From Actinomycetes bacterium (lineage in GTDB: Bacteria > Actinomycetota > Acidimicrobiia > Acidimicrobiales > RAAP-2): DNA of 64,000 nucleotides. The stretch spans positions 248,001 to 312,000 of the forward strand of contig JAJZUS010000002.1 of assembly GCA_021848365.1 (NCBI GenBank), written 5' to 3'. The notes under the pieces are model-generated. The model saw only the letters and a list, made by a program, of their open reading frames with translations, made no database searches and was not told the origin of the DNA. Positions 17,234-24,802 of this stretch are shown here, in pieces; the stretch's first letter is position 1, and each line of letters begins with the position of its first letter. The position numbers and the translations under genes are program-made.

Positions 17234-20224
17234 TCAGCCGCGGGGCGTCGTCGTCGTGGTCGTCGTCGTGGTCGTCGCCTTGGTCGTCGCCTTGGTCGAC
17301 GTCGCGGTCGACGTCGCGGGAGCACTCGTTCCGAGGGCCCGCTGAGCGTTGAGTAGCGCCCGGTGCATGGCGTTCACGAGGCTCTGGTACTGGCCGAGAT
17401 TGCCCGCGGCGAGGGCCGCCTGGGCCGCGGTGTAGTCGGCCGCCGCCTGAGCCAGGTACGTCGCCGCCGACTGAGTGGTGGGGCCCGTCGAGCTCCCGCC
17501 CGAGCCTCCGGATCCGCCCGAGCCTCCGGTCGAGGCGGGAACGCCCGCGCCGAGGACGTCCGTCAGCGCGCCGGCGAGGGTCGGTTCGATCCCCACCTGC
17601 TGGTTGAAGACGGCGATCACGTACTTCAGCTGCGGCATCGGGTTCGACGTGCTCTCGACGTAGAGCGGCCGGATGTAGAGGACGCTCTGGTCGAGGGGGA
17701 CCATCAGGTTGTTCCCGAGCAGGACCTGAGAGCCGTGCTGGTCGAGCGGGGTGATGATCGAGCTCACCTTGGCGTTCTGCTGGATCTCCGAGTCGGCCTG
17801 CGCCGGCCCCGTCACGAGCGAGCCGCGAGGCGTCTCGTAGACGTAGAGCTGTCCGTAGTCGCTCGGGTCGCTCGTCGCCACCATGAAGGCCGTGAGGCCC
17901 TGGACGTTGGTGGAGTTGCCCGCGGGGACGAAGGCCACGGACTCCAGCAACTGCTGGTGCTGCGTGCCGGGCAGCGAACCCACCTGGAGCAGCGGGCTCA
18001 TCGGGGAGAAGGACGAGGAGACGACGTTGCCGGCCGAGTCGGTGACCGCCGTCTGGGCGAGCGCCGTGTTGGGGCTGCCCGCCCCGGTCGTCGGCGAGAT
18101 CTCCCACCGGTCCGACGCGTTGTAGAAGGCCAGCGCGTTGGTGATGTGGTACCGGGCGAGGGTCGCCGCCTGGACGCTCATCAGGTCCGGCGGGTAGTGC
18201 AGGTGACTCGCGATCTCCGAGGGCATCGACGACATCGGCAGGAACATCGAGGGGAAGGCCGCGCGGTAGGCCTTGAGGATCGGGTCATTGGGGTCGGCCG
18301 CGTAGAACTTCATCGAGCCGGTGTAGGCGTTGATGACCACCTTCACCGAGTTGCGCACGTAGTTGAAGCTGTAGGGCAGTCCGCCCTCGTTGACGCTCAG
18401 GCCGCTGGCGTTCTGGCTGTAGGGGTACTGGTCAGTCGTCGTGTAGCCGTCGAGCACGTACTGGACCGAGCCGTCGGCGATGACCGCGTAGGGCTGCGAG
18501 TCGAAGGAGAGGAACGGGGCCGCCTTGCGGGCCATGGCCTGGACGTCGCGCACGAAGAGCACACGGCTCTGCGACGTGATCTGGTTGGAGATGAGGAAGT
18601 TGAAGTCGTTGAGCCGTAGGGCGAAGGCCATGCGGCGCAGCAGCCCGCCGACCGCGACGCCGCCGGACGCGGCGTAGTGGCTCTCGACCGGCTGCCCCGC
18701 GTTCGTGCCCGAGTTGACCTGGTAGTCGAGCTCGGGCTGCTTGGAGTTGGCGACGACCCAGCCGGGGTCGTTGATGCCGAAGTAGATGTCCGGATGAGTG
18801 AGGACCGGCAGGCCCGCGCTCGACGCCGGCGGGATGTTGTCCACCGACATGATCGGGTTACCGGTCGCGTAGTCGACCGTATTGGCGTCGACCACGACGG
18901 CCCCGATGCCGTGCGTGTACTGGAGGTGCGAGTTGACCCAGCTCGGCGAGGGCAGGTTCGACATGTTGAGCTGGCGCGCCCCGATGAGCACCGGCGTCAA
19001 CTTGCCGTTCACGTAGTAGCGGTCGACGCCGAGCGACGTGAAGGTGTAGTACGAGCGGATCGACTGGCGCTTGTTGACCGTCGCCAGCCCGATGTTGGAC
19101 GACGGATCCCAGAGCCGGATGTTCGACAGCGTCGGGGCGGCCGCGGTCACCTGGCGGGGCGTGATCGTCGTCGCCCCCGCGAAGGCGTGGTACGAGACCT
19201 TGTCGAGGCCGAAGGCCTGGCGGGTCGCCACGATGTTGCGCTGGATGTAGGGGGCCTCGAGGGAGGCCTGGGCCGGCGCGACCTTGAGGCCCTGCAGGAG
19301 GGCCGGGTAGACGACGCCGATCACCAGGGCGACGAACATCCACAGTCCGACCGCGACGACCGGCAGGGACCACCCCCGCGAGCGGACGTTGGCGAGCAGG
19401 ATCGCGGCCGAGGCGAGCGACAGCACGACGAGGATGGTGAGGGCCGGGAGCCGGGCGTGGACGTCGGTGTAACCGGCCCCCTGCACGAAGCCGTTGGTCG
19501 AGTTGACCAGTTCCCACCGCGCGATCACGTAGCCCGCGGCCTTCATCACCGCGATGCCGGCACCGATCACCGATAGGTGGGCCTTCACCCGCGGAGCGAC
19601 CCGGGGCGTGACCCGGGCGGCCCGGATGCCGCCGTTCAGGTAGTGGAAGATCGCGGTGATCGCGAAGATGACGACCAGCGCGACGAGCAGCCACGTCACC
19701 ACGTACGAGAGGAACGGCAGGGTGAAGACGTAGAACCCGATGTCGTTGTGGAAGAGCGGGTCGCGCACGTGGAACGACTGACGGTGGGCGAAGAGTAAGT
19801 AGTTCTGCCACTGTCCGGCCGCGTTCGCGCCGGCGACGGCCGCCACCAGCAGGGCGACCAGGGCGTAGACGCGTCCGGCGCGGGGTCGCACCAGGTTCTG
19901 GAACCGCCGGACCACGTCGTCCTCGGGCTCGAAGGTGAGGTCCCGGGCGCCGAATCGGTCGGTGAGGAGCAGGTTGCCCCAGAGCAGAGCGAAGAAGACG
20001 ACGCCGAAGGTCACCCCCAGTCCGACCTTCACCGCGAACAGGGTCGTGAAGACGTTGCCCAGGCCGACCGACGAGAACCACAACTGGTCCGTCCATAGCA
20101 CCGCGATGCTGCGCAGCGAGAGGAAGAGGATCGCTAGGACGACGATCGCGAGGCCGAGCCAGAAGCGGCGCGACAGTCGCCCCATGCGACGGGGCCGTGA
20201 CGGGACATCGGCCGGGCTACGCAC
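17234..20224 (-). CDS. UPF0182 family membrane protein with poly-Thr tail
   Basis: 996 residues. About seven membrane helices occupy the first third (first helix FWLGLAIVVLAILFLSL, then IAVLWTDQLWF, the family's conserved start). A large extracellular domain follows (YTDVHARLPALTIL, then RSYYTFTSLGVDRYYVNGK and YVRNSVKVVINAYTGSMKFY). The last ~100 residues add a Gly/Ser linker, a helical segment (YLAQAAADYTAAQAALAAGN) and a tail with ten Thr in a row. The family (COG1615) is widespread in actinobacteria and cyanobacteria with no known function. GTG 20224 is used as start; ATG 20185 is an alternative. Confidence 0.92.
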   Translation of the reverse strand: MRSPADVPSRPRRMGRLSRRFWLGLAIVVLAILFLSLRSIAVLWTDQLWFSSVGLGNVFTTLFAVKVGLGVTFGVVFFALLWGNLLLTDRFGARDLTFEPEDDVVRRFQNLVRPRAGRVYALVALLVAAVAGANAAGQWQNYLLFAHRQSFHVRDPLFHNDIGFYVFTLPFLSYVVTWLLVALVVIFAITAIFHYLNGGIRAARVTPRVAPRVKAHLSVIGAGIAVMKAAGYVIARWELVNSTNGFVQGAGYTDVHARLPALTILVVLSLASAAILLANVRSRGWSLPVVAVGLWMFVALVIGVVYPALLQGLKVAPAQASLEAPYIQRNIVATRQAFGLDKVSYHAFAGATTITPRQVTAAAPTLSNIRLWDPSSNIGLATVNKRQSIRSYYTFTSLGVDRYYVNGKLTPVLIGARQLNMSNLPSPSWVNSHLQYTHGIGAVVVDANTVDYATGNPIMSVDNIPPASSAGLPVLTHPDIYFGINDPGWVVANSKQPELDYQVNSGTNAGQPVESHYAASGGVAVGGLLRRMAFALRLNDFNFLISNQITSQSRVLFVRDVQAMARKAAPFLSFDSQPYAVIADGSVQYVLDGYTTTDQYPYSQNASGLSVNEGGLPYSFNYVRNSVKVVINAYTGSMKFYAADPNDPILKAYRAAFPSMFLPMSSMPSEIASHLHYPPDLMSVQAATLARYHITNALAFYNASDRWEISPTTGAGSPNTALAQTAVTDSAGNVVSSSFSPMSPLLQVGSLPGTQHQQLLESVAFVPAGNSTNVQGLTAFMVATSDPSDYGQLYVYETPRGSLVTGPAQADSEIQQNAKVSSIITPLDQHGSQVLLGNNLMVPLDQSVLYIRPLYVESTSNPMPQLKYVIAVFNQQVGIEPTLAGALTDVLGAGVPASTGGSGGSGGSGGSSTGPTTQSAATYLAQAAADYTAAQAALAAGNLGQYQSLVNAMHRALLNAQRALGTSAPATSTATSTKATTKATTTTTTTTTTPRG

Positions 20225-20244: not shown

Positions 20245-21966
20245 CTAGAGGGGAACGACCGTGCACCCACACCCCGCGTGCAGGGGTGGGTGCGCCGCGC
20301 CGCTCGGGAAGGCCGCGCCGCTCGGGCGCTCGCCGGCCGCCGCGTCCAGCGCGCAGACGTCGCACGGCGCGTCGTAGGGTGCGGCGAGGAAGCGGACCGA
20401 CCGCCCCGCGGCGGCCGCGACGACGCCGACGTGGAAGGCTCGGCGCGCCGCGTCGAGGCACAGTCGCTCGACCCGGGGTCCGCGCCACTCCTTGTAGGCG
20501 GTGTTCACCCGATCCTGACCGTCACCGCTCCCGTCGGCGAGGATGCGCTTGCGCAGCGCCAGCACGATCGTCACCGCGAGGTCGGCCGTGCACTCGTCGA
20601 GTGCGGCCCGATCGACCGGCCCCGTGCTGGCCCCGGCCTCGTCGTAGGCGAACTGGACCCCCGCGGCGGCGGCGTCGGCGAGGGCGTCGAAGGCCGCGTC
20701 GGCGTAGCGCGCGCGCTGCGCGTGCTCGTCCTCGAGCTCGGTGGTGATCATGCCCCGCACCGAGCGCAGTCGGTCCAGCATGACGTTCTGGTCATCTTGC
20801 AGCGCCCGCTTCACTCGCCGAGTGAGGACGGCCAGCGACTCGGCGATCGCCGCGTCGCGCCGACGGAAGAGTTCGGCGGTGGGCGCCGACGGGGCCTCTC
20901 CCTTGCCCGGAGCCCGACGAGGGGCCGGGGGTGGGGTCGGGACGGCACCGCGCTCCTCGAGGGTCGCCTTGCGCAGGCGCGCGAAGATCTCGTTCACGAC
21001 GTCGGTGCCCGACCCGTCGGGCTCCTCTCCCGTCGCCGCCTCGGCGGGCGGGGCCGGTGCCCCCGACGCCGCGGTCGCCCGGGTACGGGGGCGGGGCGGC
21101 GCGGGAGCCTCGGTCGGCCCGTCGGTCACGACGGTCTCGGGCGTCACCGGCACCACGTCGGGCACCTCGCGCAGCGGCGTCCCGGCGAGGAGCTCGTCGT
21201 CGCTCGGGTCGGGCGAGGCCGGACGCAGTCGGAGCGCCTCCACGGCGGCGGCGCGCGCCGCCTCGTCGGAGCCGTGCAGTCCGCCCAGTACGCCCTCGAC
21301 CTGTTCGCGCACGGCCTGGACGGCCCCCACGAGACTGTCGCGAGCGGTGCGCAGCTGCTCGATCTGCACGTGCAACGACTTGCGCTTGACGACGAGGTCG
21401 TTGAGGACGGTCTTGCGCGCCTGGGTGGCCTGCTCGAGCAAGGCCCGGCCCTGCTCGCGGGCCCGCTCCACGAGCGCCTCGCCGTTGAGCTTGGCCGACT
21501 CGATGAGGCGTTCGGCCGCGAGCCGAGCGTCGCGCTCGGTCGTGGCGGCGCCCGCCTCCGCCTCCGTGGCGATGGCGGCCGCCCGCTCCTGGGCCTCGAT
21601 GAGGTGAGCGGCCGCTCGCTGCTGGGACTCGGCGTAGAGCTGGGCGCTGCGCTCCTGGGCCTCGGCCGTGACCCGGCCGGCCTCCTCGTGGGCCGACCGC
21701 AGGATCGCCGCGCTCTGGGCGCCGAGCGCGCTCGCCAGGGTCGCCTCGTCGAAGGTCGGATTGGCCGCTCGACGCAGAGCCTCGGAGAGCTGCTCTTGGA
21801 GCTCGCGCACCTTGTGCTCCAGGTGGCCCATCTCGCGCGCCACGGCCTCCAGGTGGCTGCGCACCTCCTGCGGGTCGTAGCCACCCTTGCGAACGGTCGC
21901 GAAGGTGACCCGGGCGACTTCGGCCGCGGACTGGCGGGTCGTCGAGAGGATGCGCCGTTCGTCCAT
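20245..21966 (-). CDS. DivIVA-type coiled-coil protein with phage MuF-like Cys/His C-terminus
   Basis: 573 residues from ATG 21966. Residues ~15-60 match the DivIVA lipid-binding start (FATVRKGGYDPQEVRSHLEAV). They are followed by ~180 residues of continuous Ala/Glu/Gln/Arg coiled coil and a Pro/Ala/Thr-rich linker (about 265-345). A second helical domain ends in a compact motif CDVCALDA ... HPPLHAGCGCTVVPL. That CxxC plus HP.H..C.C pattern is like the C-terminus of phage Mu gpF-type head morphogenesis proteins. DivIVA proteins mark curved membrane at poles and septa. The combination is unusual; nothing else of a phage is nearby. Confidence 0.7.
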   Translation of the reverse strand: MDERRILSTTRQSAAEVARVTFATVRKGGYDPQEVRSHLEAVAREMGHLEHKVRELQEQLSEALRRAANPTFDEATLASALGAQSAAILRSAHEEAGRVTAEAQERSAQLYAESQQRAAAHLIEAQERAAAIATEAEAGAATTERDARLAAERLIESAKLNGEALVERAREQGRALLEQATQARKTVLNDLVVKRKSLHVQIEQLRTARDSLVGAVQAVREQVEGVLGGLHGSDEAARAAAVEALRLRPASPDPSDDELLAGTPLREVPDVVPVTPETVVTDGPTEAPAPPRPRTRATAASGAPAPPAEAATGEEPDGSGTDVVNEIFARLRKATLEERGAVPTPPPAPRRAPGKGEAPSAPTAELFRRRDAAIAESLAVLTRRVKRALQDDQNVMLDRLRSVRGMITTELEDEHAQRARYADAAFDALADAAAAGVQFAYDEAGASTGPVDRAALDECTADLAVTIVLALRKRILADGSGDGQDRVNTAYKEWRGPRVERLCLDAARRAFHVGVVAAAAGRSVRFLAAPYDAPCDVCALDAAAGERPSGAAFPSGAAHPPLHAGCGCTVVPL

Positions 21967-21976
21967 TCCCCAAAGA

Positions 21977-23086
21977 CTACGACGAACGGGTCCCCGTTCC
22001 GGTGCTCCCGAGCGGGTGGGGGACGCTCAACGGGACGGGTCGAGCCCCGCCGAGGCGATGCAGGGCGTCGAGGGCCTGGCGCAAGGAGGTCACGCCGATC
22101 ACGCGCAGGCTCGGCGAGGCCACCGACCGCGCCGTGGCGACCTCGACCTGGGGAACGAGGAAGACCGTCGCGCCGGCGCGCTCCACGGCGATGGTCTTCT
22201 CGGCGACGCCCCCGACGTCGCCGACCTGTCCGGCGGTGTCGATGGTCCCGGTCGCCGCGACCACGTGGCCCCCCGTGATGGAGGTCCGGCTCAGCTGGTC
22301 GATGAGGGCGAGGGTCATCGCGAGGCCGGCCGACGGGCCGCCGATGTAGTTGGTGTCCACGTTGACCGTCGCCGGAAGTCGGAAGGCGACGCCGTCCTCG
22401 AGGGCGACGCCCAGCCACGCGTGGTCGGGACCGCTCACCCCCGGGCAGCCCGACGGGAGCGATCCCGCCGGGGGCGTGCCCGCCCGCAGCGACACGGTGC
22501 GCTCGCTCCCGTAGGTGATGCGCCCCTGGGCGTCGATCCGCGCCGGGTCGACACCGAGACGCACGATCGACCCGGGACGCACGTCGTGAACCGCGGCCAC
22601 CAGGCCGCAGGCGCTCACGACCGGCCGCCCGTCGACCGCCACGACGCGGTCGGCGACGTGCAGGTGATGGCGGGCGGGCGACGGGGCGATCACACCGGTC
22701 ACGACGGCGCCGGTCGGCGTCGCGACGGGCCGCCACCCGAGGGCGCGCAGGGCCGCCACCGCGGCCGCCTCCTTCGAGTCGGACATCTGGAGGAAGCCCT
22801 GCGGGCCGATCTCGTCGGATGGGATGCCGGGCTCGAGGAGCTGGTTCGCGCTCACGAACTCCACCGGATGCTGGAAGTGCAGGATGAGCCACTGCCACGC
22901 CGTCAGCGACGAGAGGTAGACGTCGGTGAGGAGGATCCGGTCGTGGTGGTCCCGGCTCGGCAGTCCGCTCACCGAGACGAGGGGGCCGACCGCGCTGGCC
23001 TGGCCCGGCGTGAGCGCGTAGTAGGGGACGGTCCAACTCTGCAGTCCCACGACGGCGAGGATGACCACGGCCAGGGCCGCCAGCAC
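21977..23086 (-). CDS. YlbL-type membrane protease (PDZ plus Lon/S16 domain)
   Basis: 369 residues. The N-terminal helix (LAALAVVILAVVGL) is followed by the family segment VPYYALTPGQA, then a PDZ domain (GAVVTGVIAPSPA, VADRVVAVDG). A C-terminal Lon-type proteolytic domain has Ser in GGPSAGLAMTLALID and Lys in GGVAEKTIAVERAGA, an intact Ser-Lys dyad. Proteins of this kind cleave membrane or exported substrates, e.g. in division checkpoints. GTG 23086 is the only usual start in the open frame, though it leaves few basic residues before the helix. It is divergent from the HEAT gene and 10 nt upstream of the DivIVA-like gene, probably in one operon. Confidence 0.9.
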   Translation of the reverse strand: MLAALAVVILAVVGLQSWTVPYYALTPGQASAVGPLVSVSGLPSRDHHDRILLTDVYLSSLTAWQWLILHFQHPVEFVSANQLLEPGIPSDEIGPQGFLQMSDSKEAAAVAALRALGWRPVATPTGAVVTGVIAPSPARHHLHVADRVVAVDGRPVVSACGLVAAVHDVRPGSIVRLGVDPARIDAQGRITYGSERTVSLRAGTPPAGSLPSGCPGVSGPDHAWLGVALEDGVAFRLPATVNVDTNYIGGPSAGLAMTLALIDQLSRTSITGGHVVAATGTIDTAGQVGDVGGVAEKTIAVERAGATVFLVPQVEVATARSVASPSLRVIGVTSLRQALDALHRLGGARPVPLSVPHPLGSTGTGTRSS

Positions 23087-23131: not shown

Positions 23132-23788
23132 GTGGATCGCGATGCCGACACGCTACCGGAGTGGATCGAGTCGTTGATCCTCGCCACGACGGCCGACGAT
23201 GAGCCGTCGGCCGAGCTGGTTCGGCGGGGGCTCGGGCACGGCCACGAGCGGGTCCGGGTGATCGCGCTGCGGGCCGCGGCGCGACGGGGGCTCCTCGAGG
23301 ACGCCGACCTCGACGCCGCGCGACGCGACGAGTCCCCGAGCGTGCGCCGCGAGGCCCTGACCCAGATCGCGCGCGGCGCCGGAGGACGACCCGACGCGGT
23401 GGTGTCGAGTCTGGCCGACCCCGACGCGCTGGTGGCCGAGGCGGCCGCCTTCGCGCTGGGCGAGCGAGCGGTGACGTCGGCCGTCGGGGAGCTGGCGCGA
23501 GCGGCCGGGACACACGCCGACGCGCGCGTGCGCGAGGCCGCCGTGGCCGCCCTCGGCGCTCTCGGGGATCCGGCCGGGCTCCCCGCGATCGTCGCCGCCC
23601 TCGACGACCGGCCCCCCGTGCGTCGTCGGGCCACCGTCGCCCTCGCCGCCTTCGACGACCCTCGAGCCGCCTCGGCGCTCGAACGGGCCCGCGCCGATCG
23701 CGACTGGCAGGTCCGCGACGTCGCCCGGCGCCTGAGCGACGAGGACGGGGACGAGGACGGGGACGACATTCCCTTCGGCGGCCACTGA
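23132..23788 (+). CDS. HEAT-repeat protein
   Basis: 218 residues from GTG 23132 with GGTGGA about 8 nt upstream. It is built of five or six HEAT/PBS-lyase-like helical pairs (ERVRVIALRAAARRGLL, SVRREALTQIARG, ALVAEAAAFALGERA, ARVREAAVAALGALGDP, VRRRATVALAAFDDP). The acidic tail is DEDGDEDGDDIPFGGH. Such proteins are protein-binding scaffolds. It is divergent from the YlbL-type protease gene with 45 bp between starts and convergent with the MreB-like gene. Confidence 0.8.
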   Translation: MDRDADTLPEWIESLILATTADDEPSAELVRRGLGHGHERVRVIALRAAARRGLLEDADLDAARRDESPSVRREALTQIARGAGGRPDAVVSSLADPDALVAEAAAFALGERAVTSAVGELARAAGTHADARVREAAVAALGALGDPAGLPAIVAALDDRPPVRRRATVALAAFDDPRAASALERARADRDWQVRDVARRLSDEDGDEDGDDIPFGGH

Positions 23789-23797
23789 GCCGCCTCG

Positions 23798-24802
23798 TTA
23801 CCGGTCGGCGTCGCGAAAGAGCGCGTGCAACGAGGACATCTCCTCGAGGCACAGCTGGAGGCCCTTGATGATCACGAGATCGGGCTGGTCGGCGACCATC
23901 ACGGTGACGCCGGTGCGCTCGGCGACGAGCTCGGCGAGATCGGCCATCCGCGCCTGCCCGCCCACGAGCGTCAGTCCCCGGGCGCTCACGTCCTGCGAGA
24001 GGTCGGGCGGGGCCCCCGAGAGGGAGTCCTCGATCATGGCGACCGCGGCGTGGACGACGTCGTGGAGCGCCACGTTCACGAGGTCCGCGCCGATGTCGAC
24101 CTCGATGACGTCGCCGGTGTCGACGGTCCGGCACCGCACGACCTCGGAGAGGCCCCGCGTCGCGCCCTTCGCCGACCCCAGGGCGATCTTCAGCGACTCG
24201 ATGACCGTCGGGGCGATCACCACGCCGAAGCGGTGCCGCGCGAGCGACGCGATCGCGAGGTCGATGTCGGAGCCCCCCTGGCGACGCGTCGCGCTCGTGA
24301 CGATGCCGCCGAGCGAGAGCAGGGTCGCCTCGGAGGCGCCCCCGCCCAGCACGGCGACGGCCGAGCCGACGGGATCCTGGACCGGTAGGCCGAGGCCGAT
24401 CCCCGCGGCGAGCGGCGCCTCGATCAGGCTCACCTCGCGAGCGCCGGCCTGGATGGCCGCCTGACGGAGCGCCCGGCGCTCGATCGCGGTGGCGAGGGAC
24501 GGGACGCTCATGACGACGCGGGCCCGGCTGAGCCGCGACAGACCCACCCGCTCGAAGAGGCCCGACACCAGTCGGGCCGTCACGTCGAAGTCGACGGTGG
24601 CCCCCTGGGCCAGCGGGCGGAACACGACCACGTGGCGGCTGGTGCGTGCGACGAGGTCGAGCGCGCCGTAACCGACCTCGACCACCGCCCCCGACCGGGT
24701 GTCGATCGCGACGCTGGTCGGCTCGTTGAAGACGACCCCGTCCGAGGCCAGGGCCACCCTCGTCATGGAGGTCCCGATATCCATCGCGACGTCCGTGGCC
24801 AC
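23798..24802 (-). CDS. MreB-like actin-family protein, divergent in the nucleotide site
   Basis: 334 residues, close to the usual MreB length. The fold can be followed: phosphate-1 region DIGTSMTRVAL, SVPSLATAIERRALRQAA, the SLIEAPLAAGIGLGLP segment, GGSDIDLAIASLARHRFG, IESLKIALGSAKG and GLTLVGGQARM. In MreB the phosphate-2 loop is usually DIGGGT; here it is VLGGGASEA, without the Asp. The adenosine-loop GGGA is GGQA. No mreC or mreD is adjacent. It may bind nucleotide without hydrolysing it, or act as a regulator of filaments. It is divergent from the PDZ pseudoprotease gene. Confidence 0.8.
   Translation of the reverse strand: MATDVAMDIGTSMTRVALASDGVVFNEPTSVAIDTRSGAVVEVGYGALDLVARTSRHVVVFRPLAQGATVDFDVTARLVSGLFERVGLSRLSRARVVMSVPSLATAIERRALRQAAIQAGAREVSLIEAPLAAGIGLGLPVQDPVGSAVAVLGGGASEATLLSLGGIVTSATRRQGGSDIDLAIASLARHRFGVVIAPTVIESLKIALGSAKGATRGLSEVVRCRTVDTGDVIEVDIGADLVNVALHDVVHAAVAMIEDSLSGAPPDLSQDVSARGLTLVGGQARMADLAELVAERTGVTVMVADQPDLVIIKGLQLCLEEMSSLHALFRDADR

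Follow-up and report, generated by a model that had tools for sequence, protein, structure and literature searches.

A gene in the window (the whole stretch of DNA that was analysed, 64,000 nucleotides long) encodes a protein in which a DivIVA start and a long helix are joined, through a mostly disordered linker, to a C-terminal domain that profile searches and structural models identify almost certainly as MuF, of the portal-associated minor head protein type. It is probable, in our view, that an exapted phage MuF domain was fused here to a DivIVA membrane and coiled-coil scaffold, on which it would act as a docking head. The positions given in the original prediction were correct, with the gene encoded on the minus strand. 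The plus-strand frame over the same positions is open too, but there was no support for a gene in it. The protein is laid out as follows.

20245..21966, minus strand, read 21966 to 20245: the DivIVA-MuF fusion gene, 573 aa (full-length AlphaFold model, mean pLDDT 81.4, pTM 0.47)
21763..21927, minus strand: DivIVA N-terminal region, residues 14-68, within the Pfam DivIVA match
21235..21747, minus strand: a single continuous helix of about 170 residues (74-244), presumed to form a coiled coil, as judged by the secondary structure of the full-length model and its pLDDT
20881..21234, minus strand: Pro/Ala-rich linker, residues 245-362, mostly disordered (pLDDT below 50 at 243-275, 277-320, 340-343 and 345-357)
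20956..21006, minus strand: short linker helix with the IFARLR motif, residues 321-337, in the full-length model
20248..20880, minus strand: MuF domain, residues 363-573, from PHROG and Pfam profiles, BFVD fold matches, hhalign and the domain model
20785..20811, minus strand: KRALQDDQN in the first MuF helix, with K386, R387 and Q393 invariant in 29 copies
20353..20364, minus strand: C535-x2-C538 of the Cys/His set, each Cys kept in 26 of 29 copies
20263..20280, minus strand: H563-x2-C566-x-C568 of the Cys/His set, kept in 28, 29 and 29 of 29 copies, respectively

The DivIVA start that had been read from the letters was borne out by Pfam, in which PF05103 matched residues 14-119 (E=5.1e-9, 36.6 bits, above the curated cut-off of 28); the NCBIfam DivI1A domain model matched residues 13-46 (E=1.7e-6). 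The N-terminus and the long helix are common to the fusion and to DivIVA/Wag31 of Actinomycetota. In contrast to Wag31, the fusion carries an extra domain of 210 residues and scored 42.4 bits against the cut-off of 260 of the Wag31 equivalog NF050102, and another DivIVA-domain protein (L091, G000:C2 near 39480) is encoded in the same genome, close downstream of sepF. DivIVA was detected at E 0.01 in 55 of the 59 full-length fusion members, with no match in the other four; L162 and L163 had no evident DivIVA domain, and L079 begins at a contig end. At L162 (4849-5868) the MuF-UPF0182 pair contained a MuF open reading frame of 340 aa. Another locus, L168 (5222-9649), held a frame of 1476 residues, more than twice the usual length, which ends in MuF and has a DivIVA-like stretch far upstream of it. 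Conversely, a DivIVA-like frame of 333 aa with no MuF lay between the YlbL-like and UPF0182 genes of G047 (L087). In the disordered linker, a helix with the motif L/I-F-A-R-L/I-R recurred in many copies; the regular expression for it matched 45 of 61, but also caught a motif in a MuF helix. The IFARLR-type helix may be a candidate binding peptide.

The tail had been described as a phage MuF-type metal motif. Its relation to MuF stood, on profiles, fold and hhalign; the description as a motif did not, since it is the whole domain of about 210 residues (363-573) that is related, opening with a long helix in which KR.....Q is unchanged throughout 29 copies. From these copies, 27-73% identical to the window copy, the C-terminal 240 residues were aligned and scanned singly at a limit of E=1. 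The phage portal family phrog_2662 was matched by 28 of the 29 (best 4.7e-15) and Phage_Mu_F (PF04233) by 13 (best 3.4e-5), while further head families were matched too, among them phrog_2841 by 20 and phrog_4728 by 17; on the match to MuF-like profiles the original prediction was upheld. The last 240 residues of the window protein matched phrog_2662 with E=2.5e-6, in the C-terminal part of the model (538-707 of 717), and had no PF04233 match, though 13 of the set of 29 did. With whole proteins the signal was weaker. Up to a limit of E=1, Pfam gave no Phage_Mu_F match for the whole window protein, and against PHROGs, at a limit of 5, the sole head family was the minor head protein family phrog_2841 (E=0.13), with no phrog_2662. 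At stricter limits, whole proteins matched Phage_Mu_F in 6 of 59 cases (E=0.01) and phrog_2662 in 10 of 59 (E=0.001). A phmmer search of the PDB with the C-terminus alone gave no match, nor did tblastn with the C-terminus of one relative against phage records. Such single-protein searches are uninformative here, and family profiles are needed.

The structure prediction that had been suggested produced a confident model of the last 240 residues (pLDDT 90.7, pTM 0.85), which resembles models of phage head-morphogenesis and minor-capsid proteins. In BFVD it matched 38 viral models with E of at most 0.001. Names were attached to 22 of these: 21 were proteins of head morphogenesis, capsid or portal, and the other was a CDI toxin-like phage protein. 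TM-scores by query length were 0.30-0.65 at 10-18% identity, and several of the superpositions were poor (TM 0.30, rmsd over 20). Foldseek found no PDB chain with this fold at E 0.001, and a profile search of the PDB gave weak matches, mostly to ribosomal proteins (best E=0.038). VIA-align returned helical bundles together with other, unrelated helical chains, the best being a designed bundle with Z 8.1; the lack of a solved MuF fold among them proves nothing.

Profile-profile comparison by hhalign with eight phage MuF proteins gave 98.9% (E=3.6e-17), with 92 columns of the C-terminal end aligned, against 0.1% or less for one reversed and ten column-shuffled controls; this test is not independent, because the phage loci had been found with patterns from the fusion family. 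The Pfam, PHROG and fold tests, unlike hhalign, are independent. The three of these phage proteins that were scanned (L126, L134 and L138) all matched Phage_Mu_F on their own. The phage-side relatives were head-module genes: terminase, portal and MuF stood in order in L134, and portal and MuF in L138. A six-frame search of 100 genomes of the class with phrog_2662 found the fusion gene in 19 and phage portals in 6 others. A phage portal gene from a genome of the same class (L142, 1504-3495) was a 664 aa frame with a Pfam portal domain; it matched phrog_2662 over 57-712 of 717, and its end had no match to the profile of the cellular domain. We consider it very likely that the transfer was from phage to host.

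Both CDVCALDA and HPPLHAGCGCTVVPL are present at the C-terminus of the 573-aa protein, so that the window copy carries the Cys/His motif as had been described. The residues of the set were conserved among homologues, each in 26-29 of 29. In 63 loci, the pattern was strict in 42 and partial in 13, and 8 copies stopped before the motif; in the partial copies the second Cys was often replaced, and a longer loop defeated the pattern in L179. The motif is thus a real conserved feature but not a universal one, and the putative metal binding would not be universal either. The hairpin most likely stabilises the domain, through a metal or a disulphide, rather than catalysing a reaction. A simple metalloenzyme was considered and rejected: there was no evidence for one, and the hairpin is absent from 8 of 63 copies. 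Outside the Cys/His set, P554 was invariant in the 29 copies, as were the three residues of the first MuF helix.

The survey of the architecture in actinobacteria that had been called for was carried out with the domain profile in 148 sampled genomes of the class, which we take to be Acidimicrobiia. The domain was present in 102 of these, and in 91 of the 110 of high quality. Of the 46 misses, 34 fell in family f33, whose genomes are 0.6-1.1 Mb; outside f33, 102 of 114 genomes therefore carry the domain. Two further misses (G144 and G155) in fact hold a truncated MuF domain. A single match was found in 101 of the 102 carriers. The exception, G072, has two MuF places (C19 and C23) and two UPF0182 genes, each MuF followed directly by UPF0182, and the pair seems to have been duplicated as a unit. 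In a sample of the phylum, with up to 9 candidates scored per genome, at least 42 of 296 genomes had the domain, at least 27 inside the class and at least 15 outside it, where the carriers belonged to families f88, f91, f93, f112 and f64. Among 33 related public records, 11 were labelled Acidimicrobiaceae or Acidimicrobiales, including the closest (97% identity), 21 bore broader actinobacterial labels and one was labelled Acidobacteriota. The source genome of the window is near complete (1.96 Mb, 3 contigs, 96.7% estimated), and the fusion gene is present there in single copy. The fusion is an ordinary single-copy gene in many Acidimicrobiia and is stably inherited.

The fusion gene is the middle of a tight same-strand run, with a YlbL-like protease gene before it and a UPF0182 gene after it. 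The neighbouring genes in the window are the following.

17234..20224, minus strand: UPF0182 membrane-protein gene, 996 aa (PF03699, E=9.8e-242), 20 nt downstream of the fusion gene
21977..23086, minus strand: YlbL-like PDZ/Lon-type (S16) protease gene, 369 aa (Lon_C 3.6e-10, PDZ_2 4.2e-6), 10 nt upstream of the fusion gene
23798-24802, minus strand: MreB-like gene, further upstream, with a homologue in 28 of 66 fetched loci

On the plus strand, the stretch at about 23200-23788, between the protease and MreB-like genes, has the look of HEAT repeats by eye. No portal or terminase gene stood beside the fusion gene. The neighbours that it has, together with the conserved synteny, ruled out a prophage remnant, and an assembly chimera was ruled out by the occurrence of the same fusion in many genomes.

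The gene had been said to sit in a pair with a membrane protease. The adjoining Lon_C/PDZ gene upheld this for the window; across genomes, however, the most constant partner was UPF0182. Among 61 loci, a YlbL-like gene stood no more than 400 nt upstream in 39 and about 4 kb off in 5, and the fetched stretch contained none in 17. UPF0182, by contrast, was downstream on the same strand in 60 of the 61 fetched domain loci, within about 1.1 kb by open-frame bounds, and the sole exception (L166) was a contig end. In the class survey the same arrangement was seen at 98 of 103 domain places in the 102 genomes, with 72-323 nt between the domain and UPF0182 profile matches. Two of the other five places (G095 and G117) run up against the end of a contig. 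In the remaining three (G069, G184 and G113) UPF0182 is on another contig, and these are possible true exceptions.

UPF0182 was carried by 138 of the 148 genomes of the class and by 198 of the 296 of the phylum sample. It is thus far commoner than the fusion and does not need it. Twenty UPF0182 loci without an adjoining domain match were inspected, 19 from domain-negative genomes and one (L200) from G069. Two of them (L201 and L202) held a MuF that stops before its Cys/His end, and the other 18 had no MuF. A YlbL-like gene was seen in 11 of these 18 and lay within about 140 nt of UPF0182 in 6, which suggests that the fusion gene was inserted into an older YlbL-like/UPF0182 pair. Distances between MuF domains and between UPF0182 proteins were correlated (Spearman 0.47 over 54 loci; p=0.005, the lowest value that 199 permutations allow), as joint vertical descent would predict. 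Neither the synteny nor the correlation is proof of contact.

We take Rv3193c to be the UPF0182 protein of Mycobacterium tuberculosis. According to the accessible text of PMC8093794, Rv3193c is among 14 membrane proteins of that species with transposon mutants that are depleted in the absence of the divisome gene rv0954, a thin link between UPF0182 and division. For the other neighbour, B. subtilis YlbL is described as a protease that aids recovery from a division-blocking DNA-damage checkpoint (PMC6051672, in the part accessible).

A docking module, a membrane-bound self-associating scaffold and a near-constant membrane-protein gene are most simply read together as a recruiter. Proteins of the DivIVA family are brought to curved membrane. 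In the mechanism that we propose, the DivIVA end would bind the inner membrane face at the septum or poles and oligomerise, and the disordered linker would project an array of MuF domains. Each MuF would serve as a docking module, in the manner of phage gp7 on the portal ring, and would dock on the membrane protein UPF0182 at its cytoplasmic face, so concentrating UPF0182 where the envelope is built. As docking partner, UPF0182 is the likeliest candidate but a tentative one. The best studied MuF protein, SPP1 gp7, is described in the accessible part of PMC6316719 as binding strongly to the portal and present in few copies; it is dispensable for assembly, yet of the virions that lack it only about 25% are infectious.

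Were MuF to bind DNA, the fusion could instead be a chromosome anchor, with its DivIVA end tying the nucleoid to the membrane at the pole or septum. The title of a 2003 paper by Stiege reportedly describes SPP1 gp7 as a protein that binds DNA. An interaction of mycobacterial DivIVA with ParA, described in the accessible text of PMC10714820, would also fit. We nevertheless regard an anchor as unlikely. The synteny points to a membrane protein, and the MuF domain is acidic (median net charge -11, range -24 to 3, in 63 copies), although this is weak evidence against DNA binding, as most of the phage relatives are mildly acidic themselves. It is also quite improbable that MuF is purely structural, merely ending, oligomerising or stabilising the DivIVA coil with no partner at all. 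Copies that lack the Cys/His hairpin, or the whole of MuF, do exist, as they would for a dispensable cap; the long disordered linker between coil and MuF speaks against a cap, however, and the invariance of K386, R387, Q393 and P554 among copies only 27-73% identical suggests a specific surface.

Homology to a portal-binding assembly component also brings to mind an anti-phage decoy, a membrane-tethered MuF that binds the portal rings of infecting phages and spoils head assembly. The behaviour of the gene makes this very unlikely: it is mostly single copy, it keeps a constant context throughout the class and its distances track those of UPF0182, whereas defence genes are patchy and mobile. The domain has, moreover, diverged far from the phage copies (10-18% identity in the fold matches). 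Finally, the tail might be an unrelated zinc hairpin that arrived at its Cys/His motif by convergence, and the weak score of the entire window protein with a minor head family (only E=0.13) would agree with that; family profiles, profile-profile comparison and a fold that spans the whole domain leave this explanation next to no credibility. A MuF docking head on a DivIVA scaffold is the reading that we retain.

With the phage MuF/SPP1 gp7 minor head proteins (PF04233, phrog_2841 and phrog_4728) and the C-terminal part of the portal family phrog_2662, the fusion shares the same domain, a helical core with a C..C and H..C.C end. It differs from the phage proteins in that MuF sits C-terminal to DivIVA, in a chromosomal gene with UPF0182, YlbL-like and MreB-like neighbours. 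The MuF polymorphic toxins described in the accessible text of PMC5576092 are likewise multidomain proteins built on MuF. In these, however, the toxins follow MuF and are found on temperate phages, whereas MuF is the C-terminal end of the fusion, and there was no toxin domain among the Pfam matches of the fusion protein. In the same survey, from 2017, 35% of 1753 tailed phages carried muf genes, and the function of the MuF domain was called unknown. The recruitment of mobile-element genes by their hosts to roles in the cell cycle (PMC8987985, accessible text) offers a further likeness, a mobile-element protein being reused by the cell as it would be here. MuF, portal and head morphogenesis are absent from the main text of that review, as is DivIVA in its accessible part, and DivIVA has no mention in the accessible parts of the MuF survey (PMC5576092) and of a polyvalent-protein survey. 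A literature search that covered few subscription papers and preprints found no paper with both whole words MuF and DivIVA, and the fusion may be in print. Exaptation from mobile elements is known; a phage head part on a DivIVA scaffold is, as far as we searched, undescribed.

In the Acidimicrobiia, MuF has become part of the cell and is inherited stably, carried by a scaffold whose gene partner is nearly constant, and its binding function is thereby open to study without a phage. For UPF0182, which annotation leaves as an uncharacterised membrane family, the fusion offers a partner that can be tested; phage head proteins would also join the mobile-element parts that the cell has reused. A bolder and rather doubtful version is that an ancestral actinobacterium acquired a phage portal-docking module a single time, and that this became the receptor end of a cytoskeletal scaffold on which a membrane complex forms around UPF0182, with UPF0182 as the cellular counterpart of the portal ring. 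If true, this would give an orphan membrane family a partner, and MuF a cellular function.
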